Below are positions 21,578-46,069 of a stretch of DNA of 46,069 bases, piece by piece (the first letter of the stretch is position 1; each line of letters begins with the position of its first letter). The DNA is from Novosphingobium sp. 17-62-19 (GTDB taxonomy: Bacteria > Pseudomonadota > Alphaproteobacteria > Sphingomonadales > Sphingomonadaceae): assembly GCF_002256775.1 (NCBI RefSeq), contig NZ_NCII01000021.1:1-46069 (forward strand), given 5' to 3'. The position numbers and the translations under genes are program-made. The notes beneath the pieces are model-generated. The model had not been told where the DNA came from. It saw only the letters and a program-made list of their open reading frames with translations, and made no database searches.

Positions 21578-21580
21578 AAG

Positions 21581-28361: not shown

Positions 28362-28751
28362 TCAAAACATGCTGTTGGGGTTTACCGGATTTGCCGGCAC
28401 GTCCTGGATCACGTCCCAGTGTTCCACGATCAGGCCATCGGCCACGCGAAAGATATCGACCACGGCCAGCCCCGCATCGCCCGGCCAGCGCACCACGTGG
28501 GTGTGCGTGATGACATGATCACCGTCGACAAAACTGCGATGAATGGTCTGCGTGGCATCGGGCGATTCAGCGCGCACGCGATCCAGAAAGCCCTTCAATG
28601 CGGCCACCGAAGGTTCGGCCAGCGAGGAATGCTGGACGTAACCGGGCGCGATGTAGCGGTCCACCGCGCTGCTATCCATCGCGATCAGGACCTTGTGATA
28701 CATCTCCAGCACCAGATCGTGATTGGCCTGTTCCTGCACGGTGCGCGGCAT
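28362..28751 (-). CDS. cytosolic SnoaL/NTF2-like protein
   Basis: A 129-residue SnoaL-like protein without a signal peptide. The PGYVQHSSLAEPSVAAL and VVDIFRVADGLIVEHWDVIQD segments align with its exported neighbour, including the shared C-terminal ending in SMF/TMF. It is the first gene of the minus-strand operon, 13 bases before the exported paralogue, and divergent from the 285-residue protein gene. A pocket suited to a small aromatic or keto compound is expected from the fold; the reaction is unknown. Confidence 0.82.
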   Translation of the reverse strand: MPRTVQEQANHDLVLEMYHKVLIAMDSSAVDRYIAPGYVQHSSLAEPSVAALKGFLDRVRAESPDATQTIHRSFVDGDHVITHTHVVRWPGDAGLAVVDIFRVADGLIVEHWDVIQDVPANPVNPNSMF

Positions 28752-28785: not shown

Positions 28786-28842
28786 AGTATGCCTTGCGAT
28801 GAGAAGGCCGTCAAAGCCTCAATGACACGTTTGGGAGAAGTG

Positions 28843-29700
28843 ATGACCCGCGCCGAGCTTTACGCCGTTCTGGACCGCTTTCTGGCCGCGCTGAATGCCC
28901 GCGATCCCCATTCGCTCGACTGGGCGAGCCAAGCGAATCACAGCGAGAACAACGTCATGCTGGAAATCGGCGATGGCGTGTGGGGCACGATTGACCGGCT
29001 GGGCGATTACCAGTTGCGCTTTGCTGACGTGAAAACACGGCAGGTGGGGTACTTCGGCACCGTGATCGAACCAATCGAAGAATCCGCTTTCACGCTGCGC
29101 CTCGGCCTCAATGATGCAAGGCAGATTGCTGAGTGTGAAATGCTGATCGTTCGCCAGTCTGACAGCGGCATCAAGTTCGAAAACTGCCGCTATTGGGACA
29201 AGCCGATCCTGCACCGCGAGGCAGAAGCGCCGGTTGCCCGCGAAGAAATGGTGCGCCTGTCCAACGGCTATTTCGATACGCTCCAGCGCAACGATGGCAC
29301 GATCCACACCAGGTTCCATCCCGATTGCAACCGCGTGGAAAACGGCGTCCAGACCACGCGCAACCCGGACTTTGCCAAGATCGTGCCGGTATCGGCGCTG
29401 GGCTGCGAAGAGCAGTTCCGCATGGGCAACTACCGCTACGACGACGATCTGCGCGCCCGCCGTTTTCCGCTGGTGGATGAAGAACGCGGGCTGGTGCTGG
29501 CCTTCGGTTTCATCGACCATTCGGGCCGCTTGCGCGAATTTCAGCTTACCGATGGGCGCACGGTGAAAAGCCCGGTACTGCGGCCGCACAGCTTCTACAT
29601 CTCCGAACTGTTCAAGATCGATCACGGCATGATCGAACAGATCGAGGCGAACTTCATCACTGTGCCCTATCGGATGCCAAGTCCTTGGGACTCCCTGTGA
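28843..29700 (+). CDS. uncharacterised protein, probable double NTF2-like/DUF8021-type
   Basis: A 285-residue protein without a signal peptide. The first part (MTRAELYAVLDRFLAALNARD, helix followed by strands) and the second part (LSNGYFDTLQRNDGTIHTRFHPDCNRVENGVQTT) both have the opening of an NTF2-like cone, so it may hold two related domains. The segment with HPDCNRVENG recalls DUF8021 proteins. ATG 28843 has GGGAGAAG upstream; an earlier in-frame ATG at 28789 lacks one. It overlaps the PQQ dehydrogenase gene by one base (TGATG). The function is unknown, but context implies the same pathway. Confidence 0.7.
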   Translation: MTRAELYAVLDRFLAALNARDPHSLDWASQANHSENNVMLEIGDGVWGTIDRLGDYQLRFADVKTRQVGYFGTVIEPIEESAFTLRLGLNDARQIAECEMLIVRQSDSGIKFENCRYWDKPILHREAEAPVAREEMVRLSNGYFDTLQRNDGTIHTRFHPDCNRVENGVQTTRNPDFAKIVPVSALGCEEQFRMGNYRYDDDLRARRFPLVDEERGLVLAFGFIDHSGRLREFQLTDGRTVKSPVLRPHSFYISELFKIDHGMIEQIEANFITVPYRMPSPWDSL

Positions 29701-31889
29701 TGCGCTCTGCCAAAAAGGCGGTGTTGGGATTGGGAGCGTTGGCGCTGGCGGCCTGCGCTATCGCTGCCTCGCCGCCGCAAGTGGGCGCCGGAAGCGAATG
29801 GACCAGCCCCGGTGGCGACATGGGCAAGACCCACCATTCGCGCCTGACCGCGATCAATGCCGAAAACGTCAGCCAGCTTGGCCTCGCATGGGAAGCCGAA
29901 CTCGGCACCCTGCGCGGGCAGGAAGCGACGCCAGTGGTGGTGGATGGCGTGCTTTACACTTCGGGCACCACGGGCCGTGCCTATGCCTTCGATGCGGCGA
30001 CGGGCAAGGAACTCTGGCGGTTCGAGCCGGAAGTGGACATGCAGGTCAACCGCACGGTCTGCTGCGACATGGTAAACCGAGGCCTCGCTGTCGCGCGGGG
30101 CAAGGTCTTCGTCGCCGCGCTTGATGGCTGGATGTACGCGCTGGATGCCAGGACCGGCGCGGTGGTGTGGAAGACCGATTTCATCGAGGACCGTAAGCGC
30201 GGCGACAATTCCACTGGCGCCCCCGAAATTGCGGGCGATGTGGTGGTCGTGGGCATGAGCGGCGCGGAATACGATGTGCGCGGCTATGTCACCGCGCTCG
30301 ATCTGGAAACCGGAAAGCTGCGCTGGCGCTGGCACGTGGTACCGCACGATCCCAAGCTGGGACCGCAGGAAACGCCGGAACTGGAAGTCGCGTTGAAAAC
30401 GTGGGATCCGAACAGCCGCTGGGATATCGGCGGCGGCGGCAGTCCTTGGGATGCGATTGCTTTCGATCCTGAAACCGGGCTGGTGATCGTCGGCACCGGC
30501 AACGGCGGGCCATATGCCACGTCGAAGCGTTCACCGGCCGGTGGTGACAACCTCTATCTCGCCAGCCTTGTCGCGCTCGATCCCAAGACCGGGCGGATGA
30601 AATGGCACTATCAGGAAACCCCCGGCGACAACTGGGATTTTACCGCCACGCAGCCGATGATTTTCACGCGGATGAAGCTGGACGGTGAAGACCGCCCGGT
30701 GGTGCTGCACGCGCCCAAGAACGGATTCCTCTATATTCTGGACAGGCGCGACGGAAAGCTGCTGCGCGCCAATCCCATCGTGCGGACCAACTGGACGAAG
30801 GGCATCGATCCCAAGACTGGTCGCCCGATCCTTGATCCAGAAGCGGCGGATTATACCACCGGCCCCAAGATCGTTTTCCCCGCCACCACTGGCGCGCGCA
30901 ACTGGCACCCGGCCAGCTATGATCCAGCAACCGGGCTGTACATCGGTGCGGTGCTCGACATGGGGAACATGATCTTCATGACCGAGGGGCAGAAGCCCTA
31001 CAAGGCGCGCGGGCTGAACAACGATGCCGCGCTGATCTTCACGCCTGATGTGAAGGAAGCACTGGCGGGTTTTCCGCCTGCCTTCGGTGATGCAGTGCGC
31101 AAGACGCCAGCCTATGCCGAGGCGCTGAAGAACCCGGCCAGCGCGCAGATCCGCGCCATCGACCCGCTTACCGGAAAGACGGTGTGGGCCGCTGATACGG
31201 CAGGCTGGCAGGACCGGGGCGGGGTGCTGACCACCGCCAGCGGGTTGACGATCCACGGCGGGGTGACCGGCAAGCTGTTTGTTCGCGAAACGAAGACCGG
31301 CAAGTTGCTGAAGGAAATCGACACTGGCACCGCGATCATGGCCGCGCCAATGACCTATGAGGTTGGCGGCGTTCAGTACATCGCAGTCATGGCCGGGTGG
31401 GGCGGGGGCGGCTATCCGTTCGTGCCGCGCTATTCGGCGGCGTATAACCGCACCAACACCAATCGGCTGCTGGTGTTCAAGATCGGCGGCGGCAAGGTGC
31501 CTATGCCCGATCTGCGGCCCGCGCTGGAAGTCGCGCCAGCACCGCCTGCGCAGGCCACCAGCGTGACGGCGGCTACCATCGCGCGCGGGCAGGGGCTGTT
31601 CTTCGGCAACTGCGCGATCTGCCACGCCAATCAGCCGCGCTCGATCACGCCGGATTTGCGCCGTATGCAGCCAGGTACGCACGAAGTCTTCCGCGAGATC
31701 GTGATGGAGGGGCTGCTTGTTCCCAATGGGATGCCGCGCTGGAACGATATACTGAAGCCCGAGGATACCGAAGCCATCCATGCCTACCTGATCGACCTGC
31801 AAGGCCAGACCCGTAAAGATGAGTTGGAAAAACAGAAAGCCGGAAAGCCGCTCGACGGGCCGAGCCTGACGATCCTGTCGAACTATTGA
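29700..31889 (+). CDS. quinohemoprotein (PQQ, haem c) alcohol dehydrogenase
   Basis: A 729-residue exported dehydrogenase. The signal ends in a lipobox-like LALAAC (Cys19). The eight-bladed PQQ propeller carries repeated W-motifs (such as TGKELWRFEPEVD). Vicinal cysteines Cys121-Cys122 form the disulfide ring of this enzyme class, and catalytic Asp313 lies in DNWDFTATQ. A C-terminal cytochrome domain has CAICH (Cys638, Cys641, His642). It should oxidise an alcohol in the periplasm and pass electrons to a c-type cytochrome. The residue two after the catalytic aspartate is Thr, as in calcium-type rather than lanthanide-type enzymes. Its start overlaps the upstream gene. A paralogue lies at 37022. 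Confidence 0.92.
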   Translation: MRSAKKAVLGLGALALAACAIAASPPQVGAGSEWTSPGGDMGKTHHSRLTAINAENVSQLGLAWEAELGTLRGQEATPVVVDGVLYTSGTTGRAYAFDAATGKELWRFEPEVDMQVNRTVCCDMVNRGLAVARGKVFVAALDGWMYALDARTGAVVWKTDFIEDRKRGDNSTGAPEIAGDVVVVGMSGAEYDVRGYVTALDLETGKLRWRWHVVPHDPKLGPQETPELEVALKTWDPNSRWDIGGGGSPWDAIAFDPETGLVIVGTGNGGPYATSKRSPAGGDNLYLASLVALDPKTGRMKWHYQETPGDNWDFTATQPMIFTRMKLDGEDRPVVLHAPKNGFLYILDRRDGKLLRANPIVRTNWTKGIDPKTGRPILDPEAADYTTGPKIVFPATTGARNWHPASYDPATGLYIGAVLDMGNMIFMTEGQKPYKARGLNNDAALIFTPDVKEALAGFPPAFGDAVRKTPAYAEALKNPASAQIRAIDPLTGKTVWAADTAGWQDRGGVLTTASGLTIHGGVTGKLFVRETKTGKLLKEIDTGTAIMAAPMTYEVGGVQYIAVMAGWGGGGYPFVPRYSAAYNRTNTNRLLVFKIGGGKVPMPDLRPALEVAPAPPAQATSVTAATIARGQGLFFGNCAICHANQPRSITPDLRRMQPGTHEVFREIVMEGLLVPNGMPRWNDILKPEDTEAIHAYLIDLQGQTRKDELEKQKAGKPLDGPSLTILSNY

Positions 31890-31917
31890 TGCAAGACGCC
31901 AAACCCCAAACACCATC

Positions 31918-32003
31918 GTCACCCCGGGCTTGACCCGGGGTCCCGCTTTCTTCTGCTGACGTCACAAAAAAGAAGCGGGATCCCGGATCAAGTCCGGGAT
32001 GAC
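31918..32003. repeat. REP-like inverted repeat
   Basis: The left unit begins GTCACCCCGGGCTTGACCCG and runs to about 31952. The right unit (31966-32003) is its near reverse complement, ending CAAGTCCGGGATGAC. The complete hairpin lies between the PQQ dehydrogenase and DUF3237 genes. It is the same general class as the repeat at 6253 but with different core bases. Confidence 0.8.
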
Positions 32004-32036
32004 GGTTGAGGGGAAAGGCTTGAAAGGAATTGCTGA

Positions 32037-32534
32037 ATGGACTTCTCCACGCTCGACAATCCCCGCCTCGAATTCGCCTTCGCCTGCCGCTTGCGCTTCA
32101 CCCGCGTGCAGATGGTGCCTGACCTGCCTTCGGGTGGGATGCGCAGCGCGGTCTATGTGGACGAGGGCGACTTCGAAGGCCCGCGCCTGAAGGGGAAGGC
32201 CGTGCCCAATTCGGGCGGCGACTACGCCTTCTTCCGGCCCGACGACACGGCGGTGTTCGATGCGCGCTATGTGCTCGAAGTCGACGACGGCACGCTGATC
32301 TACATGCAGAACAAGGGCTTCCTGTGGGGGCGCGAGCCGGGCACGATGGACCGCTTGCGCGCCTGGGCTTTTGCCGGGGGTGAGCCGGTCCCCCACGCTG
32401 AATACTACCTGCGCGCGCAACCGACGTTCGAAACGAGCAAGGGCAAGCACGACTGGCTGACTCGCCACGTGTTCATAGGTGTGGGGGAGCGCAAGCCGGA
32501 TGGCAATTACGTGAAGTATTACGCGCTGACGTGA
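32037..32534 (+). CDS. DUF3237 family protein
   Basis: A 165-residue protein of the DUF3237 (UPF0311) family, a small beta-barrel of unknown reaction. LEFAFACRLRFTRVQMVPDLPSGGMRSAVYV at the start is split here by family-conserved positions. The DGTLIYMQNKGF segment and YYLRAQPTFETSKGKHDWLTRHVFIGVGER end are characteristic. There is no signal peptide. AAAGGA lies before ATG 32037. It is flanked on both sides by palindromic repeats, which makes it look like a separate insertion unit within the catabolic run. Confidence 0.82.
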   Translation: MDFSTLDNPRLEFAFACRLRFTRVQMVPDLPSGGMRSAVYVDEGDFEGPRLKGKAVPNSGGDYAFFRPDDTAVFDARYVLEVDDGTLIYMQNKGFLWGREPGTMDRLRAWAFAGGEPVPHAEYYLRAQPTFETSKGKHDWLTRHVFIGVGERKPDGNYVKYYALT

Positions 32535-32540
32535 GCCGGA

Positions 32541-32651
32541 AAAGCCCCCTCCTCTTCAGAGGAGGGGGTTGGGGGTGGTGGCGTCCAAGCGCTGTGCGAT
32601 GCCGGAAACACCACCCCCCGGCCCCCTCCTCTGAAGAGGAGGGGGAGGCTT
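32541..32651. repeat. long inverted repeat (CCCCCTCCTCTTCAGAGG type)
   Basis: The unit at 32544-32580 and the unit at 32609-32650 are near-perfect reverse complements, each containing the internal palindrome CCTCTTCAGAGG or CCTCTGAAGAGG, with about 28 bases between. It lies between the DUF3237 stop and the flavoprotein promoter and could form a strong hairpin that ends upstream transcription. Confidence 0.8.
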
Positions 32652-32680
32652 GACGAAAACCTCTTCACACCGCATAACAA

Positions 32681-32692
32681 TAACAATTGTTA
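32681..32692. promoter_or_regulatory. perfect palindrome before the flavoprotein gene
   Basis: TAACAATTGTTA is a perfect 12-base palindrome, 26 bases before the preferred GTG start, in an AT-rich stretch that contrasts with its surroundings. The position fits a repressor operator at the start of the flavoprotein-cytochrome unit. A near copy occurs at 28773. Confidence 0.5.
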
Positions 32693-32718
32693 GAAAAATA
32701 CATGGGAGAATCCGTCCG

Positions 32719-34305
32719 GTGAAGCTTCACCTTCCCCCCCGCGTCAGCCCGAAGCAGTTCCAGTCCGCGATGACCGCCTTTGCCGGTGTCGTCGGCAAGG
32801 ACTGGCTGATGGACACCGATGCCGACCGCGATGCCTACGCCGATACATACGCCCCCGGCAGCACCGAGGAGTGGCCCGCATCGGCCGCCGTCGCGCCTGC
32901 CAGCGTGGATGAAGTGCGCGCTATCGTGCGGCTGGCGAACGAGCACAAGGTGCCGTTGTGGCCCGTCGCGCGTGGCAAGAACCTGGGGTACGGCACCGCC
33001 GCACCGCGCATGGAAGGCACCGTGGTGATGGACCTCGGGCGCATGAACAAGGTGCTCGAACTCGATTCCACGCTGGCCTATTGCGTGGTCGAACCGGGCG
33101 TGGGGTTCTTCGATCTTTACGACCAGATCCAGCGCGAGAAGGCACCGCTTTGGCTGTCGGTCCCCGGCAATGCCTGGGGTTCGGTGCTGGGCAATGCGCT
33201 CGAACACGGCATCGGTTACACCTCCTATGGCCTCCACGCGCGCAACCTTTGCGGGATCGAGGCCGTGCTGCCCGACGGGGATCTGGTCCGCACCGGCATG
33301 GGCGCGATGGCCAACAACCCCGCGTGGCATCTCTTCCCGATGAGCTATGGTCCAACGTGGGATCTGGCGTTCTCGCAATCCAACCTCGGCATCGTGACCA
33401 AGGCGGGCGTGTGGCTGCAGCCCGCGCCGGAAACCTCGCTCGAGATCGTGTGGGATATTCCCAAAGTGGAGGACATCGGCTGGGTGATCGACACGATCAC
33501 GCCGCTCAAGATTTCCGGCCTGATCGACCAGAACGTGTTCATCCCATCGTGGCTCGGCAAGATGGTGCTGAAAGGTCAGCGCAAGGATTTCTGGGACAAG
33601 CCATCGGCCATTCCCGATTGGCGCGTGGACGAACTGCTCAAGGAGCACAAGCTGGGCTACTGGCAGGTCGCGCTGCGGCTCTATGGCGAGGAACCGGTGG
33701 TCAAGGCGCGGGCCGAAGTGGTCAAGGCGGCGATGAAGCGGCATCTGGATGCAGCACCGCAAGAGAATTGGTGGCGGCAGGGCGATCCCATCGGACAGTA
33801 TGAAACTACGATGGGCGTTCCGTCCGCCGTGCCATTGCAGATGTCGGACTGGATCGGCGGGCGCGGGGCGCACATGGGCTTTTCGCCGGTGGTTCCCGCC
33901 ACGGGCAAGCACGTGCTGGATCAGATGGCGCGCAGCCGCAAGATCATCGCCGATTTCGACGTCGATTTCTATGCCAGCTTCACCATCGGCGGGCGCTTTG
34001 CCAACAACGTCAACATGCTGATGTATGATCGCGACAATGCAGAAGAAGTCGCCAAGATGCGCAAGCTGTTCGACGCGCTGATCGTGGAGACGGCCAAGGC
34101 AGGCTATGCCGAATACCGCACGCATCTGGGCTGGATGGACCCGGTGATGGAAACCTTCGATTTCAACAACCACGCGCTGCGCCGCTTTGACGAGAAGGTG
34201 AAGTCTGCGCTCGACCCCAACGGGATCATCGCACCGGGCAAGCAGGGCGTCTGGCCCGCCGCCTATGCCGACAAGCGCGGCTCTGCGTACAAGGGAGGGC
34301 AGTGA
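32719..34305 (+). CDS. FAD-dependent phenol oxidase/dehydrogenase, p-cresol methylhydroxylase flavoprotein type
   Basis: A 528-residue VAO/PCMH-family flavoprotein. The FAD (PCMH-type) domain contains PLWPVARGKNLGYGTAAP, followed by VPGNAWGSVLGNALEHGIGYTSYG. The substrate-cap domain and C-terminal ALDPNGIIAPGKQGVWP are typical. Relatives oxidise the para-alkyl or para-hydroxymethyl carbon of phenols (p-cresol, eugenol, vanillyl alcohol). The cytochrome c gene that follows directly matches the two-subunit methylhydroxylases rather than the oxygen-using oxidase. GTG 32719, after GGGAGA, is preferred; a TTG at 32650 would start in a repeat. No signal peptide is evident, although known flavoprotein subunits of this type act in the periplasm with the cytochrome. 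The covalent FAD residue cannot be assigned without an alignment. Confidence 0.9.
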   Translation: MKLHLPPRVSPKQFQSAMTAFAGVVGKDWLMDTDADRDAYADTYAPGSTEEWPASAAVAPASVDEVRAIVRLANEHKVPLWPVARGKNLGYGTAAPRMEGTVVMDLGRMNKVLELDSTLAYCVVEPGVGFFDLYDQIQREKAPLWLSVPGNAWGSVLGNALEHGIGYTSYGLHARNLCGIEAVLPDGDLVRTGMGAMANNPAWHLFPMSYGPTWDLAFSQSNLGIVTKAGVWLQPAPETSLEIVWDIPKVEDIGWVIDTITPLKISGLIDQNVFIPSWLGKMVLKGQRKDFWDKPSAIPDWRVDELLKEHKLGYWQVALRLYGEEPVVKARAEVVKAAMKRHLDAAPQENWWRQGDPIGQYETTMGVPSAVPLQMSDWIGGRGAHMGFSPVVPATGKHVLDQMARSRKIIADFDVDFYASFTIGGRFANNVNMLMYDRDNAEEVAKMRKLFDALIVETAKAGYAEYRTHLGWMDPVMETFDFNNHALRRFDEKVKSALDPNGIIAPGKQGVWPAAYADKRGSAYKGGQ

Positions 34306-34306
34306 G

Positions 34307-34708
34307 ATGAAGCGGATCGTGATTGCCGCCGCTCTCGTGGCGATGGGGGCAGCGGCCTATGCGCAGGCACCGGCAGGCCCTCCGCCAATGCCGCCCTACA
34401 TGCTCCGCCCGCTCGCGCCCGAAGGTGACCGTTTGAAATCCGGCCGCGATGGCAAGACCTTGTTCGAAGCGCAGTGCGGCTATTGCCACCTCGCTGGAGG
34501 CATGGGTACCAACCTGCTGACCAAGCAGCAGATGATGGCGGGCAATCCGCCAGAAAAGGGCCTGCTCTCCAACCGTGACGATCTGACGCGCGACTATGTG
34601 AAGTCGGTTGTCCGCATGGGCAAGGGCGCGATGCCGCAGCAGACCAAGGTGGACCTGACCGACGCGGAGCTGGATGCCGTGGCGGTCTACCTCGGGAAGG
34701 CCGACTGA
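34307..34708 (+). CDS. small c-type cytochrome, electron-accepting subunit of the flavoprotein
   Basis: A 133-residue exported cytochrome: signal peptide MKRIVIAAALVAMGAAAYAQA, haem motif CGYCH (Cys57, Cys60, His61), and a likely axial methionine in RMGKGAMPQQ. It begins one base after the flavoprotein stop with AAGGGAGGG as ribosome site. This matches the pchF-pchC pairing of p-cresol methylhydroxylases, in which the cytochrome takes electrons from FAD. It overlaps the next gene by one base (TGATG). Confidence 0.9.
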   Translation: MKRIVIAAALVAMGAAAYAQAPAGPPPMPPYMLRPLAPEGDRLKSGRDGKTLFEAQCGYCHLAGGMGTNLLTKQQMMAGNPPEKGLLSNRDDLTRDYVKSVVRMGKGAMPQQTKVDLTDAELDAVAVYLGKAD

Positions 34709-35076
34709 TGCGCCTTTCCCGTCGCTCGATGCTCAAGGGCAGCGCATTGGCTGGCTCTGCCATCGCCGTGCCTGCCTTTGGCAACAGCCTTGGTAATGCG
34801 CCGTTGGTGGTGTTCGACAGCCGCATTCCGGAATCGTTGGCGTTTGCCGCTACAACCGGTGGTGAGGCGCGGCTCGATCTGGCGCAAGGCCTTGAAAAGA
34901 CATGGCGTGCGCTCGATTTTCCGCAAAGCGTGACGGGCCTCACACGCTGGAGCGACTGGACTGCGCTACGAGGACATCTTGAGGAGCAGGGCTTGCGACT
35001 CGAGGAAGAAATGCGTGTTGCATCGCCGCTCTCAGGCCGCACGCATCTCTTCCGCTGGACAATGACCGCGCGCTGA
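34708..35076 (+). CDS. small Tat-exported protein of unknown function
   Basis: A 122-residue protein with a textbook twin-arginine signal (SRRSMLKGSALAGSAIAVPA) and a mature part of only about 95 residues. It has no cysteine, haem or flavin motif. Its LVVFDSRIPESLAFAA segment and a Trp/Arg-rich end (FRWTMTAR) are not known to me as a family. Translation is coupled to the cytochrome by TGATG. Tat export implies folding or cofactor loading in the cytoplasm, so it could be a chaperone or third subunit that carries the signal-less flavoprotein across the membrane; this is inference. Confidence 0.7.
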   Translation: MRLSRRSMLKGSALAGSAIAVPAFGNSLGNAPLVVFDSRIPESLAFAATTGGEARLDLAQGLEKTWRALDFPQSVTGLTRWSDWTALRGHLEEQGLRLEEEMRVASPLSGRTHLFRWTMTAR

Positions 35077-35388
35077 TCCCTCGCGACCCTTTTACCGTGC
35101 GCCAACGTTGCACCGCGTGAAATGCGCTGTCTCCATAGGATGCACGTCGCCCCGCAACCGCCATAGCAGAAGCGCGAAATTTAACGGCATGTGGACTTGA
35201 CCCACGCTCTCGCTCATTTAGTAAGTGTTGCTAACAAAATTCCGACTGAAGCGGAATCGGGAGAGAGGCAGCGCGAGGCGATGGACGAGAGACCCTCTAC
35301 CACTGCAAGCCACAATGGGCCGTGTCGCCAGTCCAGACCCGCTCCGCGCATGAACGCCGGGGCCAAATTCAACCGTTGGGGATAATCC
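35077..35388. other. 312-base intergenic region before the acyl-CoA ligase
   Basis: No convincing gene is seen. It holds a TTGACC box (35197-35202) with a weak TAGTAA 16 bases on, and an inverted repeat at 35218-35234. An open frame at 35191-35385 has no family-like sequence and poor codon pattern. The region probably carries a separate promoter for the ligase gene. Confidence 0.6.
35218..35237. promoter_or_regulatory. possible operator of the acyl-CoA ligase gene
   Basis: TTAGTAAG (35218-35225) and GTTGCTAA (35227-35234) form an inverted repeat with six of eight pairs matched. The 16-mer TAAGTGTTGCTAACAA (35222-35237) agrees with TATGTGTTGCATACAA at 45673-45688, between purU and the demethylase gene, at 13 of 16 positions. 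A shared regulator is possible. Confidence 0.45.
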
Positions 35389-36954
35389 GTGCGCGCTATC
35401 GATTACTTTGACCGTGGCCATGATCGCAACCCGCAGCGGCTTGCGATTGTCGACACCGACAACGGCCTTAAACTGACGTTTGCCGAGACGAGGGCGCTTT
35501 CCGTGCGCATCGCCGCCGCACTGCAAAAGGGCGGGTTTGAAAATCAGGACTTGCTGGGCCTCTATGGCCCAAACGATGGCATGTTGCTGGTTGCGTTGCT
35601 GGCGATGTGGCGCGCGAACGGAAAGTGGATTCCGGTCAACACGCGCAATGCGATCGATGCCAACGCCGCCTATATCAACTACGTTCGCCTCAAATGGATG
35701 GTCTATCATTCGTCCAAGGCCGACGAAGTGGATCAGCTCAAGGCGCTTTGCCCCACGCTTCAGCACTTCGTCTGCCTCGACAAGCGCATGGGTGATGATC
35801 CCAGCCTTGAAGAATTCATGGTAGGCGTTTCCGAAGCAGACTTCATCGAGCCGGAAATCGATGCTTTCGGCAACCTGATGGACATGGTCGGCATCTTCCC
35901 CACCGGCGGCACCACCGGCCCCTCAAAGGGCGCGAATGTAACCAACCTTGGCTGGGGCACGATGATCGAAACCGCCGCCGATGGTATGGGCGGGCGCACC
36001 GATGATCCGGTGGCGCTGGTGTCCGCGCCGATCACCCATGCGGCCGGGCCGATTGCGCTTTCGACGTTGAGCCTTGGCGCGACGCAAGTGATCCTGCCCG
36101 GCTTTGATGCCGAGGGCGTGCTCCGCACTATTGCGGAGTACAAGGTCACGCACATGTACCTGCCGCCAACCGCGCTGTACCAGTTGCTCGCTTCGCCGGA
36201 ACTGGGTAGCCACGACTACTCCAGCTTGCGCATCTTCATCCTCGTCGGTTCACCCTGCAGCCCGGAAAAACTGCGGCAGGCGGTCGAGGTCTTTGGCCCT
36301 GCGATGTGCCAGGCCTATGGCCAGGTCGAATGTCCGATGATCGTATCGTGGTTCCCGCCGGAAGATGTGGCAAAGTTTGCCGCATCTTCGCCCGAAAGGC
36401 TTGCCGCCTGCGGCAAGCCCACACGGTCGATCAAGGTTGCGCTGCTGGACGACGATGGCAACGAAGTGCCGCTGGGCGAAGCAGGCGAGATCTGCGTGCG
36501 TGGCGCGCTGGTGACGCATTCCTACTTTGAAAAACCGGAAGAAACCGCCGAAATCCGCAAGTTTGGCTGGCACCACACCGGTGACGTCGGCAAGTTCGAT
36601 ACCGATGGTTACCTCTATATCGTTGATCGCAAGAAGGACATGGTCGTCTCTGGCGGGTTCAATGTGTTCACTGCCGAAGTCGAAGCTGCCGTGACCGAAA
36701 TCGCGGCGGTTCGCGAAGCTTGCGTCTTTGGCATTCCGCACGAAAAATGGGGCGAACAGGTCCACGCTGTTGTCGTGGCCGAAGGCATTACCGAGGCAGA
36801 GGTCATCGCCTATACCAAGGAACGCCTCGGCGGCGTGAAAGCGCCAAAATCTGTCACGTTTGTGGACTCGATTCCGCGCACCGCTGCGGGCAAGATGGAC
36901 AAGAAGGCGTTGCGGGCTCCGTACTGGGGCAACAGCGATCGCATGGTGAACTGA
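35389..36954 (+). CDS. AMP-forming acyl-CoA ligase
   Basis: A 521-residue ANL-superfamily ligase that activates a carboxylic acid through an acyl-adenylate to the CoA thioester. The P-loop is PTGGTTGPSKG, the A5 motif AYGQVECP, A7 HTGDVG, the hinge DRKKDMVVSGGFNV, and the catalytic lysine lies in PRTAAGKMDKKAL. All are intact. The sequence resembles long-chain/aryl-CoA ligases rather than acetyl-CoA synthetase. In this cluster the acid could be a phenylpropanoid or benzoate produced by the dehydrogenases on both sides. The start is GTG 35389. There is no signal peptide. Confidence 0.9.
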   Translation: MRAIDYFDRGHDRNPQRLAIVDTDNGLKLTFAETRALSVRIAAALQKGGFENQDLLGLYGPNDGMLLVALLAMWRANGKWIPVNTRNAIDANAAYINYVRLKWMVYHSSKADEVDQLKALCPTLQHFVCLDKRMGDDPSLEEFMVGVSEADFIEPEIDAFGNLMDMVGIFPTGGTTGPSKGANVTNLGWGTMIETAADGMGGRTDDPVALVSAPITHAAGPIALSTLSLGATQVILPGFDAEGVLRTIAEYKVTHMYLPPTALYQLLASPELGSHDYSSLRIFILVGSPCSPEKLRQAVEVFGPAMCQAYGQVECPMIVSWFPPEDVAKFAASSPERLAACGKPTRSIKVALLDDDGNEVPLGEAGEICVRGALVTHSYFEKPEETAEIRKFGWHHTGDVGKFDTDGYLYIVDRKKDMVVSGGFNVFTAEVEAAVTEIAAVREACVFGIPHEKWGEQVHAVVVAEGITEAEVIAYTKERLGGVKAPKSVTFVDSIPRTAAGKMDKKALRAPYWGNSDRMVN

Positions 36955-36955
36955 T

Positions 36956-37000
36956 CCGGCAAAAAGCCGGGCGCATGGAAGAATGATCCGGCACAGCCGG
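36956..37000 (+). repeat. two adjacent CCGGC hairpins before the second PQQ dehydrogenase gene
   Basis: CCGGC-AAAAA-GCCGG (36956-36970) and CCGGC-ACA-GCCGG (36988-37000) are two short perfect hairpins, each preceded by TGAT, forming an imperfect direct repeat with a 32-base period. They lie in the 67-base gap between the ligase stop and the next ATG and could tune expression of the dehydrogenase. Confidence 0.5.
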
Positions 37001-37021
37001 ACTGGGTGGAGAGGGTTGAAG

Positions 37022-39151
37022 ATGCGTTTGAACCGCAAGTTGCACGTGATGCTCGCCGGAACGCTGGCGCTTGCTCTACCGCTGGCTGCCTGCACGATGG
37101 TGGGGGCGGACGAGCTTGGGACGGACAATGCCGGTCAGGTGGTGGACGCACAAAGCATCATCGCTGCTGATGGGGCCAACTGGCTGTCCTATGGCCGGAC
37201 TTATGACGAACAGCGCCATAGCCCGCTCAACCAGATTACGGCCGAAAACGTCGGCCAGCTTGGCCTTGCGTGGTCAGCCGATATGGACACGGCGCGAGGG
37301 CAAGAAGCCACACCGCTGGTGATCGACGGCAAGATCTACCTCACCACCGCATGGTCCAAGGCCAAGGCCTATGACGCGCTGACAGGCAAGGTGCTGTGGG
37401 AATTCGATCCCAAGGTGCCGGGCGAAACAGCGGTCAAGGCCTGCTGCGATGTGGTCAACCGCGGTATGGCGGCATGGGGTGACAAGCTCTATTTCGGCAC
37501 GCTCGATGGACGCCTGATTGCGCTTGATCGCAACACAGGCAAGCAGGTGTGGTCCACCGTCACGGTCGACCAGTCCAAGCCCTACACCATCACCGGCGCA
37601 CCGCGCGCGATGGGCGGTTTGATCGTGATCGGCAATGGCGGCGCGGAAATGGGCGTGCGTGGCTATGTCACCGCCTATGATGCGGAAACCGGCAAGCAGG
37701 TCTGGCGGTTCTACACCGTGCCTGACATGCCGGGGAAGAACGACGAGGAATACCTCAAGAAAGCAGAAGCCACCTGGAAGGGTGAATGGTGGAAGCTGGG
37801 CGGTGGCGGCACCGTGTGGGATGCCATGGCCTATGATCCCGAGCTGGACCTGCTCTATATCGGCGTGGGCAACGGCAGCCCGTGGAATCAGGCCTATCGT
37901 TCGCCCGGCGGTGGCGACAACCTCTATCTCTCCTCCATCGTGGCGATCAAGGCCAAGACGGGCGAATACGTCTGGCACTATCAGGAAACGCCGGGCGAAA
38001 CGTGGGACTTCACGGCCACGCAGCATATCATGCTCGCCGATCTGGAAATCGATGGAAAGCCGCGCAAGGTGCTGATGCAGGCACCCAAGAACGGCTTCTT
38101 CTATGTGCTTGATCGCACCAACGGGAAATTCATTTCGGGCAATGCCTATGCTCCCGTGAACTGGGCAAAGGGGCTTGATCCCGTCACTGGCCGTCCAATC
38201 GAAAACCCCGAAGCGCGCTATGACATCACCGGCAAGCCGTTTGTCAGCACCCCGGGTGCAGCAGGCGCGCATTCTTGGCACCCGATGGCCTATGACCCAA
38301 CCGAAGGGCTGGTATATATTCCAGCGCAATTCGCGGCCTATCCGTACTTCCCGGAAAAGGATTGGAAGCCTCAGTCCGTGGGTTTCAACACCGGGATCGA
38401 CAGTGCTGCCGGTGCCATGCCTGCGATCAAGGAAGCGCGCGATGCGGCCAAAGCTGCCACTACCGGTGCGGTAGTGGCGTGGGATCCGGTCGCAAAGAAG
38501 GAGCGCTGGCGCATTCCGTTTGCTGGCCCGTGGAACGGTGGCCTGCTTTCGACTGCTGGTGGCTTGCTGTTTCAGGGTAACGCCACTGGCACATTCGCGG
38601 CCTATTCCTCCAAGGATGGCAAGCAGCTCTGGTCATTCCCGGCGCAGACAGGCGTCGTCGCCGCGCCCATCACGTTCAAGGCCGGCAATGACCAATACGT
38701 CGCGGTTCTCGCAGGCTGGGGCGGCGTGTGGCCATTGGCCACCGGCGTTTTGGCAGACAAGTCCGGCCCCGTGCGCAACATCAGCCGCCTGCTGGTGTTC
38801 AAACTCGGCGGCAAGAGCAAGTTGCCCGATGCCCCACCGTTTGAAGAACGTCCGCTCAATCCGCCCGCGATTGTCGGTACGCCCGCCACGATCGCGCAGG
38901 GCGGCAACCTTTACGGCAAATACTGCACGGTCTGCCATGGCGATGCTGCGATTGGCGGCCTGCTGCCCGATTTGCGCCACAGCGCGATGAACACCGATCC
39001 TGCCGCGTGGCAGACTGTCGTGCATGATGGGGCGCTGGTGGACAACGGCATGATCGGCTGGGGCAAGTACATGACGAAGGAGCAGATCGAATCGATCCGC
39101 CACTATGTCATCAAGCGTGCGAACGAGGACAAGGCGCTGGAAACGCGCTGA
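37022..39151 (+). CDS. second quinohemoprotein (PQQ, haem c) alcohol dehydrogenase
   Basis: A 709-residue paralogue of the dehydrogenase at 29700. The signal has a lipobox-like LPLAACT. Vicinal cysteines are Cys141-Cys142 (KACCDVV), catalytic Asp329 is in ETWDFTATQ, propeller W-motifs run throughout, and a C-terminal haem site CTVCH has Cys635, Cys638 and His639. As in the first copy, the residue two after the catalytic aspartate is Thr, pointing to calcium. It is probably periplasmic, perhaps with a different alcohol or aldehyde preference. ATG 37022 follows GGAGAGGG. The paralogues differ clearly across the middle, so duplication is not recent. Confidence 0.92.
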   Translation: MRLNRKLHVMLAGTLALALPLAACTMVGADELGTDNAGQVVDAQSIIAADGANWLSYGRTYDEQRHSPLNQITAENVGQLGLAWSADMDTARGQEATPLVIDGKIYLTTAWSKAKAYDALTGKVLWEFDPKVPGETAVKACCDVVNRGMAAWGDKLYFGTLDGRLIALDRNTGKQVWSTVTVDQSKPYTITGAPRAMGGLIVIGNGGAEMGVRGYVTAYDAETGKQVWRFYTVPDMPGKNDEEYLKKAEATWKGEWWKLGGGGTVWDAMAYDPELDLLYIGVGNGSPWNQAYRSPGGGDNLYLSSIVAIKAKTGEYVWHYQETPGETWDFTATQHIMLADLEIDGKPRKVLMQAPKNGFFYVLDRTNGKFISGNAYAPVNWAKGLDPVTGRPIENPEARYDITGKPFVSTPGAAGAHSWHPMAYDPTEGLVYIPAQFAAYPYFPEKDWKPQSVGFNTGIDSAAGAMPAIKEARDAAKAATTGAVVAWDPVAKKERWRIPFAGPWNGGLLSTAGGLLFQGNATGTFAAYSSKDGKQLWSFPAQTGVVAAPITFKAGNDQYVAVLAGWGGVWPLATGVLADKSGPVRNISRLLVFKLGGKSKLPDAPPFEERPLNPPAIVGTPATIAQGGNLYGKYCTVCHGDAAIGGLLPDLRHSAMNTDPAAWQTVVHDGALVDNGMIGWGKYMTKEQIESIRHYVIKRANEDKALETR

Positions 39152-39153
39152 CG

Positions 39154-39179
39154 GATTGCTATATGATAGAGCAATCATA
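39154..39179. promoter_or_regulatory. overlapping palindromes before the aldehyde dehydrogenase gene
   Basis: GATTGCT (39154-39160) pairs with AGCAATC (39170-39176). TATGAT (39162-39167) pairs with ATCATA (39174-39179). The two are mutually exclusive hairpins sharing bases, in the 45-base gap before the ATG. This could be an operator, a weak terminator or an RNA switch; I cannot decide which. Confidence 0.45.
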
Positions 39180-39196
39180 ACCGAACGGAGAGACTC

Positions 39197-40621
39197 ATGA
39201 CGCATCTTTATCCGAATCTGATCAATGGTGAGCTTGTCACCACCGAAGCCTCGCTCGATGTCGTCAACCCGGCCAACGAACAGGTTATCGGCCGCGTTCC
39301 TGCCTGTGGCGCTGCCGAACTCGACCGCGCCGTTGCCGCTGCCCGCGCAGCATTCAAGACATGGTCGAAGACTCCGGTCGATGATCGCCGTACCGTGATC
39401 CGCAACATGGCTGCCGCCATCGACGCGAATTTTGACGAGCTTTTCCGCTTGCTCACCAGCGAGCAGGGCAAACCGCACCACCAAGCGCAGCACGAAATCG
39501 GCGCCTGTTCCGGGATCATGAACGCGCAATCAACGCTCACCCTTGAAGAGACGATCAACGAAGACAGCGACACGCGCTTCAGCCGCACACGCCGCGTGCC
39601 GGTTGGCGTCGTGGCGGGAATTGTGCCGTGGAACTTCCCCATCCTGATGGCCGTGCAGAAGATCGCGCCTGCAATCCTTTCAGGCTGCACCATCGTGCTC
39701 AAGCCGTCGCCTTTCACGCCGCTGACCACGCTCAAGTTTGCCGAACTGATCAAGGACATCGTGCCCGCAGGCGTGGTCAACATCATCACCGGTGAAGATT
39801 CGCTCGGCCCGCTGATGACCTCGCACCCCGATATCGACAAGATCACCTTCACCGGATCGACTGCCACCGGCAAGCGCATCATGGAAGGCGCATCGAAGGA
39901 TCTGAAGCGCATCACGCTGGAACTTGGCGGCAATGATGCCTCGATCGTGCTGCCCGATGCCGATGTGGCCAAAGTTGCCGAACAGCTGTTCTGGTCAAGC
40001 TTCACCAACGCAGGCCAGATCTGCGTCGCTGCCAAGCGCGTCTACATCCATGAGGATATCTATGACGAGATGAGCGCTGCGATTGCCGAATATGCCAAGA
40101 CCGTCACAGTCGGCGATGGCGCCAACCAGGGCACCGGCGTCGGCCCGATCCAGAACAAGAAGCAGTTCGAGCGCGTGTGCGAACTGATCGAGGATGCCAA
40201 GGCCAATGGCTACAAGTTCCTCGTCGGCGGCGATGTCGATCCTTCGGGGTCGGGCTACTATGTGCCGATCACCATCCTCGACAATCCGCCAGAAGACGCG
40301 CGCATTGTGGCCGAGGAACAGTTCGGCCCGGTCATGCCGCTGATGAAGTTCTCGTCCGATGATGAAGTGATCGCACGCGCCAACAACTCGGACTATGGCC
40401 TTGCCGGTGCCGTGTGGACCAAGGATACCGACCGCGGTGTGGCGATTGCCGAGCAACTGGAAACCGGCACGGTGTGGATCAACGAATTCCTCCACCTCTC
40501 GCCGTTTGCACCCTTCGGCGGCCACAAGCAGTCCGGCTTTGGCGCTGAATACGGCATCGAAGGCCTGAAGGAGTTCACCTACAGCCAGGTGATCACCGTC
40601 AAGAAAGACGCGCTGGTCTGA
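39197..40621 (+). CDS. NAD(P)-dependent aldehyde dehydrogenase
   Basis: A 474-residue aldehyde dehydrogenase. The catalytic Cys276 lies in GQICVAAKR and the general base Glu242 in LELGGND, at the usual separation of 34 residues. The cofactor segments PWNFPILMAVQKIAPAI and FTGSTATGKRI are intact. No signal peptide, so it acts in the cytoplasm, probably on the aromatic or aliphatic aldehyde formed by the PQQ or FAD enzymes. The subfamily is close to succinate-semialdehyde/lactaldehyde dehydrogenases, which does not settle the substrate. CGGAGAGA precedes the ATG, and a hairpin follows the stop. Confidence 0.93.
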   Translation: MTHLYPNLINGELVTTEASLDVVNPANEQVIGRVPACGAAELDRAVAAARAAFKTWSKTPVDDRRTVIRNMAAAIDANFDELFRLLTSEQGKPHHQAQHEIGACSGIMNAQSTLTLEETINEDSDTRFSRTRRVPVGVVAGIVPWNFPILMAVQKIAPAILSGCTIVLKPSPFTPLTTLKFAELIKDIVPAGVVNIITGEDSLGPLMTSHPDIDKITFTGSTATGKRIMEGASKDLKRITLELGGNDASIVLPDADVAKVAEQLFWSSFTNAGQICVAAKRVYIHEDIYDEMSAAIAEYAKTVTVGDGANQGTGVGPIQNKKQFERVCELIEDAKANGYKFLVGGDVDPSGSGYYVPITILDNPPEDARIVAEEQFGPVMPLMKFSSDDEVIARANNSDYGLAGAVWTKDTDRGVAIAEQLETGTVWINEFLHLSPFAPFGGHKQSGFGAEYGIEGLKEFTYSQVITVKKDALV

Positions 40622-40632
40622 TCTTTAAACAG

Positions 40633-40660
40633 CCCTGCCGACGACTGGTCGGCGGGGTTG
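40633..40660 (+). terminator. hairpin after the aldehyde dehydrogenase gene
   Basis: CCCTGCCGAC (40633-40642) and GTCGGCGGGG (40648-40657) pair over a five-base loop with one mismatch, followed by TTGTT. It is a plausible intrinsic or partial terminator 11 bases after the stop. Confidence 0.6.
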
Positions 40661-40693
40661 TTCCTGAAAATTGCGATTGCGAAGGACTGCCCA

Positions 40694-41566
40694 GTGCCCA
40701 TCGACCTTTCGAAGATCAAGGCTATCGACGTCCACGTCCACGCCGAGATTTCCTGCCACGATCCCGAAGACCCGGTGATGGGCAAGTACTTCGACGCAGC
40801 CTCGGCCTATTTCAAGGCCCCGCGTGAGCGGCCCAAGATGCCCGAAATCATCGAGATCTACCGCGAACAGCAGATCGCCTTCTGCATGTTCACCGTCGAT
40901 TGCGAGAGCGGCATCGGTGCAAAGCGCGTGTCGAACTACGAAGTGGCCGAGATCGCCAACAAGAACGACGACATCTGCATCCCCTTCGCCTCGATCGACC
41001 CGCACAAGGGCAAGATGGGCGCGCGCGAGGCGCGTGATCTGATCGAGAACCACGGCGTGAAGGGCTTCAAGTTCCATCACATCATGCAGAATATCGAACC
41101 TGCATCGCAGCTCGGCTATCCGATCTATGAAGTGATCAACGAATACAAGCTGCCCGCCATTTTCCACACTGGCCACTCCGGCATGGGCACCGGGATGCGC
41201 GGCGGCGGCGGGGTTCGCCTCAAGTACGGCCAACCCATGCTGGTCGATGATGTTGCAGTCGATTTCCCCGACATGAAGATCATCCTTGCCCACCCGTCAT
41301 GGCCGTGGGTGGATGAAAGCCTGTCGATGGCGCTGCACAAGGACAACGTCTTCATCGACCTGTCGGGCTGGAGCCCAAAGTACTTCGCGCCGCAGATCAT
41401 CCAGTATGCCAACACGCAGTTGCGCAAGAAGATGCTGTTCGGTTCGGACTTTCCGCTGATCCACCCGCAGAAGTGGATCGATGCGGCACTGCAGGTCGGC
41501 TTCAAGGACGAAGTACTGCCCGGCATCATGAAGGACAACGCCGTCCGCGTGCTCGGCCTCGCCTGA
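40694..41566 (+). CDS. amidohydrolase-2 family TIM-barrel enzyme (hydrolase or decarboxylase)
   Basis: A 290-residue metal-dependent enzyme. The HxH motif HVHAE is in the first strand, FKFHH in the middle, TGHSG and LAHPSWPW supply further histidines, and FGSDFPL gives the final aspartate. The group includes aromatic-acid decarboxylases (ACMSD, 5-carboxyvanillate decarboxylase) and lactone or meta-cleavage-product hydrolases of lignin pathways. Which of these it is cannot be told from the sequence. GTG 40694 is chosen because GAAGGA lies seven bases upstream; the preceding open frame begins in the terminator. It is followed by a PTP-like gene. Confidence 0.85.
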   Translation: MPIDLSKIKAIDVHVHAEISCHDPEDPVMGKYFDAASAYFKAPRERPKMPEIIEIYREQQIAFCMFTVDCESGIGAKRVSNYEVAEIANKNDDICIPFASIDPHKGKMGAREARDLIENHGVKGFKFHHIMQNIEPASQLGYPIYEVINEYKLPAIFHTGHSGMGTGMRGGGGVRLKYGQPMLVDDVAVDFPDMKIILAHPSWPWVDESLSMALHKDNVFIDLSGWSPKYFAPQIIQYANTQLRKKMLFGSDFPLIHPQKWIDAALQVGFKDEVLPGIMKDNAVRVLGLA

Positions 41567-41577: not shown

Positions 41578-42039
41578 GTGGCTGACCCCGACGACATCCG
41601 CGCCTGGCAACGGCTCGATGCGGAAACGACCACATCGGGCCGCATCGAGGAAAGGGACATCGTGCGCCTCGCCGATCTTGGCGTGCGCCACGTTGTAAAC
41701 CTCGCGCTCGAAACCCATCCCGAGGCACTGGCCGGGGAGGGTGAAAAGCTTGCCGCGCAGGGCATCGCCTATACGCACATCCCCGTGCCATTCGATGCGC
41801 CGGGCGACGATCACTTCGCCGATTTCGTTACCGCGCTGGAACAAGGACCAACCCCGGTCCACGTTCACTGCATCATGAACTGGCGCGTCTCGGCCTTCTT
41901 CTACCGCTACAATCGCGATCATCGCGACCTGCCTGAACCGGAAGCCCGCGCGATCATGGAGCGGCAATGGTCGCCCGATGGCCATGACAGCAAGGAAGCG
42001 CAGATCTGGGCGGCGTTCATCGCACGGAGCGGCACATGA
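41578..42039 (+). CDS. PTP/DUF442-like phosphatase-fold protein
   Basis: A 153-residue protein with the fold pattern of DUF442/PTP-like proteins: a TTSGRIEERDIVRLADLGVRHVVNL beginning and a P-loop at VHVHCIMNWRVSAFF. The P-loop has the C-x4-R spacing of this group, but the loop residues are bulky (Ile-Met-Asn-Trp) instead of the usual Gly/Ser-rich loop, so phosphatase activity is doubtful. It starts with GTG and overlaps the next SDR gene by four bases (ATGA). Its role in the cluster is unknown. Confidence 0.75.
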   Translation: MADPDDIRAWQRLDAETTTSGRIEERDIVRLADLGVRHVVNLALETHPEALAGEGEKLAAQGIAYTHIPVPFDAPGDDHFADFVTALEQGPTPVHVHCIMNWRVSAFFYRYNRDHRDLPEPEARAIMERQWSPDGHDSKEAQIWAAFIARSGT

Positions 42040-42785
42040 CCGATCTTTCCGGCAAACACGTTGTCATCACCGGCGCTTCCACTGGCATAGGCCGCGCAAC
42101 GGCCACCGCTTGCGTCAATGCGGGAGCCAAACTCACCCTGATAGCCCGCCGCGCCGACCTGCTTGAACAAGCTTCGCGCGATCTTGGCGGCAACACCGCC
42201 TTCGCCGCAGCTGACGTGGCCGATAAAGCCGCGCTAACAGCCGCACTCGATCATGCCATCGCCACACATGGCGCAATCGACGGGCTGTTTCTCAACGCCG
42301 GCATCGGCGGCATGTTCTCCGCGATCGAACACTACACCGACGAGGCTTTCGACGCGGTCATGGCGGTTAATGTAAAGGCCGTGTTCTGGGCCATCCAGCA
42401 TGTCCTGCCCGCCATGAAGGAGCGCGGTAAAGGAGCGATCCTCGTCACCGGCAGCCTTGCCAGCGAACGCGGCTTGCCGATGAACGCCGCCTACGTCGCC
42501 AGCAAGCACGCGGTCCTCGGCCTTTCGCGCGCCGTCGCCAATGAAGCGGCGGAATTCGGCGTGCGTTGCAACTGTATCCTGCCCGGCCTGATCGAAACGC
42601 CGATGCTCGATGGCCTGCCTCCCGAAGCCGCGCAGCAAATGGCCAAGGCCGTGCCCCAGGGCCGCACCGGTTCATCCGACGAAGTGGCGCAAGTTGCGGC
42701 GTTCCTCTTGTCCGATGCCGCCAGTCACGTAACCGCCCAAAGTTGGGCCGTCGACGGCGGGATGCTCGGCACCATGCGAGTCTGA
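42036..42785 (+). CDS. short-chain dehydrogenase/reductase
   Basis: A 249-residue classical SDR. TGASTGIGRA binds the cofactor, NAG is in the central strand, and the catalytic residues are in TGSLASERGLPMNAAYVASKHA (S, Y, K). ARRADL after the second strand suggests NADP preference. It is coupled to the upstream PTP-like gene (ATGA) and is followed four bases later by the damaged GST gene. It could act like the LigD/LigL-type Calpha dehydrogenases that precede beta-etherases in lignin dimer breakdown, but that specific link is inference. Confidence 0.88.
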   Translation: MTDLSGKHVVITGASTGIGRATATACVNAGAKLTLIARRADLLEQASRDLGGNTAFAAADVADKAALTAALDHAIATHGAIDGLFLNAGIGGMFSAIEHYTDEAFDAVMAVNVKAVFWAIQHVLPAMKERGKGAILVTGSLASERGLPMNAAYVASKHAVLGLSRAVANEAAEFGVRCNCILPGLIETPMLDGLPPEAAQQMAKAVPQGRTGSSDEVAQVAAFLLSDAASHVTAQSWAVDGGMLGTMRV

Positions 42786-44657: not shown

Positions 44658-44682
44658 GTTTGTTCTCTCCCGCAAACAAGAA

Positions 44683-45591: not shown

Positions 45592-45634
45592 CAAAATCTC
45601 TCCCGTCGATCCTTCGCTTGGGCTGCGCTCATAG

Positions 45635-46069
<435 letters not shown>

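Follow-up and report, generated by a model that had tools for sequence, protein, structure and literature searches.

Organization of the locus

The 46,069-bp contig NZ_NCII01000021.1 of Novosphingobium sp. 17-62-19, analysed at its full length and referred to here as the window (contig C35 of a 3.8-Mb, 149-contig genome that is 94.9% complete), carries near its right end a cluster of redox-enzyme genes (Table 1). The cluster encodes two type II quinohemoprotein dehydrogenases with pyrroloquinoline quinone (PQQ) and haem c (PQQ1 and PQQ2), a flavoprotein of the vanillyl-alcohol oxidase (VAO) type with a cytochrome c, an acyl-CoA ligase, an aldehyde dehydrogenase (ALDH) and an amidohydrolase. 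An earlier interpretation made from the letters alone (the sequence-only reading) had listed these genes on one strand, and Pfam and NCBIfam bear out all of them. It overlooked three further genes, encoding a DUF3237 protein, a tandem NTF2-like protein and a 122-residue protein with a twin-arginine translocation (Tat) signal.

The DUF3237 gene (PF11578) lies beside the flavocytochrome genes, and the DUF3237, flavoprotein and cytochrome c genes together (32037–34708) correspond in kind and order to pinX-pinW-pinV, part of the pinoresinol pathway described in mBio in 2025 (PMC12607616). We identify the region, at a probability of about 0.8, as the pin/bae/des/lig lignin-dimer locus of Novosphingobium, a module already known, the core of which was published in 2025. 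The closest named relatives by flavoprotein belong to Novosphingobium (97% identity; loci L055–L057). The sequence-only reading had taken the gene combination for an undescribed pathway; this is rejected because the DUF3237–flavoprotein–cytochrome set matches pinXWV, a match that rules out a novel, unnamed pathway, and placing an apparently new module in a published one saves a wrong claim of novelty. The broader proposal of phenolic side-chain oxidation of a lignin-derived substrate is right in outline, as is that of c-type redox enzymes with export signals.

Collinearity with the LY and F199 loci

The pinXWV locus of Novosphingobium rhizosphaerae LY (R9J51_00370–00385) and that of N. aromaticivorans F199 (Saro_2875–2877) have the same three kinds of protein as the window, in the same order and with the same flanking families. 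Published anchors in F199 (ligM Saro_2861, desD/NaLigF2 2865, ALDH 2869, a PQQ enzyme 2870, baeB/baeA 2872/2873 and pinV/W/X 2875–2877; PMC12997858 Table 1, PMC11323797, PMC6369299) match the gene order of the window from ligM to pinX, given baeAB as a two-gene gap; tags between the published anchors were assigned by counting. The LY tags 00310 (ligM), 00325 (desC), 00330 (desD), 00335 (ldpC), 00370, 00375 and 00385 also fit, although the ldpC position holds for LY only, the listed F199 homologue being Saro_1560 elsewhere and not the short-chain dehydrogenase (SDR) of this locus. The LY pin cluster is reported to be syntenic in N. capsulatum, and the N. capsulatum locus (L076) shows the gene order of the window, which thus shares its locus context with LY and F199.

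LY has one additional gene (00380) between pinX and pinW, where the window has none; at this position N. capsulatum has an outer-membrane-like gene (by eye; L076:8170–8985) that is absent from the window. Unlike in the LY and F199 pin loci, the pinZ-like and dioxygenase genes of the window genome are on a different contig (C93; L052:14373–19545). There an NmrA-like reductase gene adjoins that of a lignostilbene dioxygenase of the NOV2 type (846 bits against a cut-off of 650), and the LigC position is occupied by a Gfo/Idh-type dehydrogenase, with a LigB-type protocatechuate (PCA) dioxygenase also present; the order is that of F199 Saro_2808–2812. Relative to the BaeAB/NaLigF2 region of F199 (Saro_2861–2873), the positions of the PQQ enzyme, ALDH, glutathione S-transferase (GST), hydrolase and LigM agree, whereas the window is without baeAB and its NaLigF2/desD gene is frame-shifted. 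The DUF3237 gene is flanked by short palindromic repeat-like stretches (31905–32010 and 32545–32680, by eye).

The flavoprotein and its cytochrome

PinX of LY is a DUF3237 protein that is required past lariciresinoate in mutants and is predicted to decarboxylate lariciresinoate to imperanene, while PinW and the cytochrome PinV are required past imperanene, with a quinone methide followed by loss of formaldehyde as the proposed chemistry (PMC12607616). A co-encoded flavoprotein/cytochrome pair is described for pinWV; in the window the flavoprotein stop (34305) and cytochrome start (34307) are spaced by one base, and the two genes are apparently translationally coupled.

The sequence-only reading had assigned the flavoprotein to the p-cresol methylhydroxylase (PCMH) type. 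That identity is rejected on its bit scores: p-cresol methylhydroxylases give 317–339, less than VAO (353) or eugenol oxidase (400). Its AHMGFSP sequence aligns with GHVGFSP of the 8s7t oxidoreductase, and we take the flavin motif, by its presumed FAD-binding residue, to be of the His type and not the Tyr type; neither a Tyr-linked FAD motif nor a PCMH-nearest sequence, as in p-cresol methylhydroxylase sensu stricto, was found. PCMH (pchCXF) and PinAB flavocytochromes have the combination of flavoprotein and cytochrome c in common with the window, which differs in its His-type motif and in the order flavoprotein–cytochrome–Tat protein (W-V-Tat).

A conserved small Tat-signal protein

Conservation was assessed among relatives, taken as the best 80 of 227 loci from a scan based on an alignment of 12 orthologues. 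Flavoprotein identity reaches 59% or more in 69 of the 80, and 46 of these 69 form a set of long loci of at least 21.4 kb each. A twin-arginine-like open reading frame (ORF; 90–260 residues, [RK]R in the first 15 residues, start −15 to +30 bases from the cytochrome stop) abuts the cytochrome in 65 of 66 testable loci (the 69 less two without a cytochrome in the stretch and one incomplete), compared with 1 of 379 behind nine other cluster genes. Even the one exception, L120, matches the Tat protein at 51% by BLAST; searched for by BLAST alone, the protein turns up in 39 of the long loci (out of 46), and ORFs of this type occur in 7 of 10 more distant flavoprotein loci (45–59% identity). This filter-free test supersedes an earlier hydropathy-filtered control, with 49 of 66 behind the cytochrome (48 with the strict motif), 2 of 27 behind the amidohydrolase (one strict) and none behind seven others; a broader count gives 78 of 81 (79 with a cytochrome) for a set that included duplicate genomes. 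The second Arg is invariant in a 41-row alignment of the protein, and the first is at least 90% conserved.

The flavoprotein shows no signal peptide, as judged by hydropathy with starts set by homology: its N-terminal hydropathy maximum is 0.70–1.43 in 12 of 12 orthologues, compared with 2.64 for the cytochrome and 1.79 for the Tat protein. A conserved twin-arginine-like small protein thus stands beside a partner enzyme that shows no signal peptide of its own, and the two are probably a Tat hitchhiker pair. Known Tat hitchhiker subunits include the gamma subunit of FAD-glucose dehydrogenase and MelC1, in which a small Tat-signal partner is likewise found beside a signal-less redox enzyme; the enzyme class is different, and the window protein has no fold match. 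Its model has a pLDDT of 82, with confident block means of at least 90 over the mature domain (residues 31–122), and Foldseek returned no match at E ≤ 0.001, with TM to query of 0.26–0.41 among the 50 matches listed.

Small Tat-signal-like proteins annotated as hypothetical are also present beside PCMH-like flavoproteins on pNL1 (L141:2950–3492), pBN2 (L142:2372–3001) and pNL2 (L143:2216–2590). The hypothetical gene that neighbours the flavoprotein in the PCMH-like operon has SRRTFLS on pNL2 and TRRRFC on pBN2, and the pNL1 neighbour carries SRRTV when read from an upstream start, its start seemingly being annotated too late such as to hide the signal. When 13 chosen ORFs and 767 stop-to-stop frames were searched with a profile of the 41 orthologues, it matched the pNL1 neighbour (6e-8 stop to stop, 3e-4 from the annotated start) and, marginally, that of pNL2 (0.006), and did not match that of pBN2; its decoy matches appear, by record and frame, to represent these ORFs in extended readings, or a paralogous Tat ORF in locus L126. 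Open-licence PMC papers gave nothing for pchX with PCMH, and nothing relevant for PCMH with twin-arginine.

Two type II quinohemoproteins

PQQ1 and PQQ2 both exceed the TIGR03075 cut-off of 480 bits (517 and 623, respectively), and their alignments to solved type II enzymes span the propeller and haem domains, giving a PQQ propeller and C-terminal haem c in a single chain. PQQ1 aligns to 1kv9 including CC-D, WDFTATQ and CxxCH, and PQQ2 scores 771 bits with 1kv9; the vicinal Cys pair and catalytic Asp region are present in alignments to 1kv9 and others, and the roles of these residues in PQQ1 and PQQ2 are presumed. The PQQ propeller, C-terminal haem c, vicinal Cys and WDxTATQ region are shared with the type II quinohemoprotein alcohol dehydrogenases 1kv9, 1yiq and 1kb0, from which part of the orthologues differ in starting with a lipobox-like pattern (24 of 42 for PQQ1 and 31 of 38 for PQQ2). 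The former count rules out a universal PQQ1 lipobox. No PF01011 protein besides these two was found in the genome, in a search confined to that family of PQQ proteins.

Deletion of LY R9J51_00390, which is PQQ1 by position, slows growth on pinoresinol and does not abolish it (PMC12607616). Saro_2870, PQQ2 by position, is putatively PQQ-dependent and has been made in E. coli extract and assayed on DC-A or DC-L, and Saro_2869 converts DC-L to DC-C in vitro. Neither quinohemoprotein has an assigned reaction, and an action of the two on the substrate of the flavocytochrome is conjectural. Open-licence PMC papers gave nothing for quinohemoprotein with lignin and Novosphingobium.

Conservation of the cluster and lesions in the window

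Synteny across sphingomonads, a search for which the sequence-only reading had named as a check, is borne out: 42 of the 46 long loci hold the flavoprotein together with a match to PQQ1 (34 loci, at least 55% identity) or PQQ2 (31 loci, at least 50%), and 23 hold both. The DUF3237 gene is present in 26 of these long loci, the CoA ligase in 32, the ALDH in 28 and the amidohydrolase in 27, at set identity thresholds. This conservation across loci shows that the gene association is not due to chance.

In relatives a pair of GST genes separates the Tat gene from the ligase. Among four loci read (L056, L057, L061 and L065), BaeA residues N14/S15 are present in all four, as published, and the BaeB serine is at position 14 in three and position 15 in L065, numbers that count from the chosen start codons; the BaeA/BaeB-like genes overlap by 1–4 bases in three of the four, and an upstream start makes the overlap longer in the remaining locus. 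The Tat–ligase gap is 1.3–4 kb in 28 of the 37 loci having both genes, with room for baeAB, and is too short for baeAB in 7, including N. capsulatum. In the window baeAB is missing, with 312 bases between the Tat and ligase genes (35076 to 35389), and the best match to BaeA elsewhere in the genome is only 35% identical.

The gene that the sequence-only reading called a broken beta-etherase is indeed broken, but the GST concerned occupies the desD/NaLigF2 position. It has ~44 bases absent relative to 3 of 3 aligned relatives, which shifts the frame, and is intact in 4 of 4 relatives read; an intact two-domain GST reading frame of the beta-etherase/DesD kind was not found in this assembly, in which DesD is predicted to be inactive. 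The desD lesion and the absence of baeAB may reflect real loss or assembly error. The O-demethylase placed at the end by the same reading is of the LigM type and incomplete, the contig ending within its gene at 46069.

PQQ supply

In a survey of 298 genomes of the family, some of which are drafts such that single absences may be gaps, 7 genomes, among them the window genome, have pqqE, and the set with pqqC is identical. A PQQ1-like dehydrogenase is found in 184 of the 298 at E ≤ 1e-100, a threshold that takes in distant paralogues. Among the matches listed, at least 38 genomes have a PQQ1 match of at least 56%, and 37 of the 38 are without pqqE and pqqC, the exception being the window genome. 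None of 32 named cluster-bearing genomes (covering 32 of the 69 loci and including N. capsulatum; L076, G312) has pqqE at 1e-50, in a search with no internal positive for which the same model matches 7 genomes of the 298 set.

The pqqE, pqqD-like, pqqC and pqqB genes of the window genome are on a 9.3-kb contig (C28; L053:3917–6937) together with recombinase, GNAT and IS-type sequences that recur on many plasmids. The contig ends match plasmid recombinase/IS sequences, and the closest plasmid DNA to its pqqBC is a Roseomonas plasmid at 72% identity. Because pqq genes are rare in the family, this operon may be recently acquired or contaminating.

A search for E. coli PqqU gave nothing at 1e-20 in 23 genomes, a weak result in that it had no positive control. 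From the near absence of PqqU in Alphaproteobacteria, a 2025 paper concludes that these bacteria are for the most part producers of PQQ (PMC12124388). The rarity of the biosynthesis genes while PQQ-type dehydrogenases are common in the 298 genomes bears on this view, suggesting that the family is an exception, composed of PQQ users that are mostly not producers and that presumably take PQQ up; a dependence on outside PQQ is apparently widespread in the family. The medium used for LY was DSM 457, a minimal medium, and two methods sections of the paper do not mention PQQ (PMC12607616); PQQ supply could explain why mutation of the probable quinohemoprotein gene in LY had a mild phenotype in defined medium. 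Open-licence PMC papers gave nothing relevant on PQQ auxotrophy with sphingomonads.

Proposed roles and alternatives

If the region is the pin/bae/des/lig locus, the products of 32037–34708 would act as LY PinX, PinW and PinV at the lariciresinoate and imperanene steps. The flavoprotein would fold in the cytoplasm, leave it with the adjacent Tat-signal protein as its carrier and pass electrons to the Sec-exported cytochrome. PQQ1 may oxidise a periplasmic side-chain alcohol, most likely the CH2OH of a lariciresinol-type dimer or monolignol, in parallel to or instead of PinY, and PQQ2 with the ALDH and CoA ligase would take a phenylpropanoid alcohol through aldehyde and acid to a CoA ester. LigM, PurU and DesC would provide the O-demethylation and ring-cleavage follow-up. 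Several points weigh against these assignments: orthology to F199 and LY is by synteny and family and not by alignment; no PinY was singled out among 7 GMC-family matches in the window genome; the LY 00390 and 00395 deletion strains still grow on pinoresinol, that of 00390 without significant metabolite change; the 00390/00395 transposon effects may be polar; and Saro_2870 is not listed as active on DC-A or DC-L.

The slower growth of the R9J51_00390 deletion without significant metabolite change would also suit quinohemoproteins that stand outside the pathway as general periplasmic oxidases of alcohols and formaldehyde, protecting the cell from the aldehydes and formaldehyde that PinVW and similar reactions would release. 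The best solved relatives of both proteins are the alcohol dehydrogenases 1kv9, 1yiq and 1kb0, and quinohemoprotein alcohol dehydrogenases have a broad substrate range; moreover, the PinVW chemistry is proposed to release formaldehyde (PMC12607616). However, the quinohemoproteins recur beside pinX and beside the CoA ligase/ALDH, a recurrent placement that suggests a dedicated substrate, and we regard a purely protective role as unlikely. It is similarly doubtful that the ligase, PQQ2, ALDH and amidohydrolase serve beta-O-4 products (beta-hydroxypropiovanillone, HPV) in place of VceA/VceB, with the pin genes as mere neighbours. The baeAB-sized gap in most loci, filled by BaeA/BaeB-like ORFs in the four read, favours such a role, and F199 is described as having no VceA/VceB homologues, with the enzymes still to be found (PMC11837543); but HPV is reported to be oxidised already by HpvY/HpvZ, and the four-gene module persists where there is no room for baeAB, both in the window and in the 7 loci with short gaps. 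A stand-alone p-cresol/alkylphenol methylhydroxylase cluster of the PCMH type is highly improbable: although the PCMH-like operons of pNL2 and pBN2 also group a flavoprotein, a cytochrome c and a small Tat-type protein, eugenol oxidase and VAO score above the PCMH chains, the motif is taken as His-type, and the DUF3237 and lignin genes are adjacent.

The core of the pin/bae/des/lig locus being already known, the parts worth following are the Tat partner and the PQQ supply problem, which raise two questions: how a signal-less flavoprotein meets an exported cytochrome, and who supplies PQQ to sphingomonads. A tentative answer is that VAO/PCMH flavocytochromes share a third component missed so far, a small Tat-signal escort that brings the folded, signal-less flavoprotein to the periplasm, and that the sphingomonad module runs on outside PQQ obtained via a non-PqqU route, such that lignin-dimer oxidation would depend on the PQQ of neighbours. 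If this is true, gene-deletion screens in PQQ-free medium underrate quinohemoproteins.

Other genes of the cluster and window

The tandem NTF2-like protein has no Pfam match; its AlphaFold2 model (pLDDT 87) has tandem NTF2 epoxide hydrolases as top Foldseek matches (E 1e-6, TM about 0.3), and it is possibly a lyase or isomerase. An LdpA-type identity is unsupported, with the sole PDB sequence matches insignificant (E 0.05 and 0.09) and the Foldseek matches generic. The sole PDB sequence relative of the Amidohydro_2 protein is 3irs, and several relatives match at the ALDH slot at 40% only.

Table 1. Predicted genes of the cluster, with window coordinates, strand and basis of each assignment.
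Gene or product	Coordinates	Strand	Basis and position
SDR1, short-chain dehydrogenase	27148–27891	−	Pfam; divergent side of cluster; kept beside NTFa/NTFb in many relatives
NTFa, single NTF2/SnoaL-like, signal-peptide-like start	27896–28348	−	ORF; conserved neighbour; family and signal by eye
NTFb, single NTF2/SnoaL-like	28362–28751	−	ORF; conserved neighbour; family by eye
Tandem NTF2-like protein	28789–29700	+	Position of F199 Saro_2879 / LY R9J51_00395
PQQ1, type II quinohemoprotein dehydrogenase	29700–31889	+	TIGR03075; position of Saro_2878 / R9J51_00390
DUF3237 decarboxylase (predicted), pinX position	32037–32534	+	PF11578, E 7e-38
VAO-type flavoprotein, pinW position	32719–34305	+	FAD_binding_4/FAD-oxidase_C; GTG start set by homology
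Cytochrome c, pinV position	34307–34708	+	Pfam; Sec-type signal peptide by eye
Tat-signal small protein, 122 residues	34708–35076	+	TAT_signal just below cut-off; position of Saro_2874 / R9J51_00365
Acyl-CoA ligase	35389–36954	+	PF00501/PF13193; Saro_2871 position
PQQ2, type II quinohemoprotein dehydrogenase, lipobox-like start	37022–39151	+	Saro_2870 position; start codon uncertain
Aldehyde dehydrogenase	39197–40621	+	PF00171; Saro_2869 position
Amidohydro_2 protein (decarboxylase role putative)	40658–41566	+	PF04909; start codon uncertain
DSP/PTP-like protein	41578–42039	+	Weak Pfam matches; not seen in some relatives
SDR2, LY ldpC position	42036–42785	+	Pfam; R9J51_00335 is the ldpC homologue
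Broken GST, desD/NaLigF2 position	42790–43522	+	~44 bases missing, frame shifted
Alpha/beta hydrolase, desC position	43522–44259	+	PF12697
VOC-like protein	44256–44675	−	ORF; family by eye; no NCBIfam match
PurU formyltetrahydrofolate deformylase	44737–45684	−	TIGR00655, 317 bits (cut-off 286)
ligM-type vanillate/3-O-methylgallate O-demethylase, N-terminal part	45728–46069	+	NF047885 residues 5–113, 191 bits; cut by contig end

Among ten ORFs scanned further to the left (13171–24460), most of those with a match are housekeeping genes (RapZ, SpoU methylase, RmuC, formyltransferase and TruA); the others include a zinc alcohol dehydrogenase and another GST, which is intact and distinct from that of the cluster.

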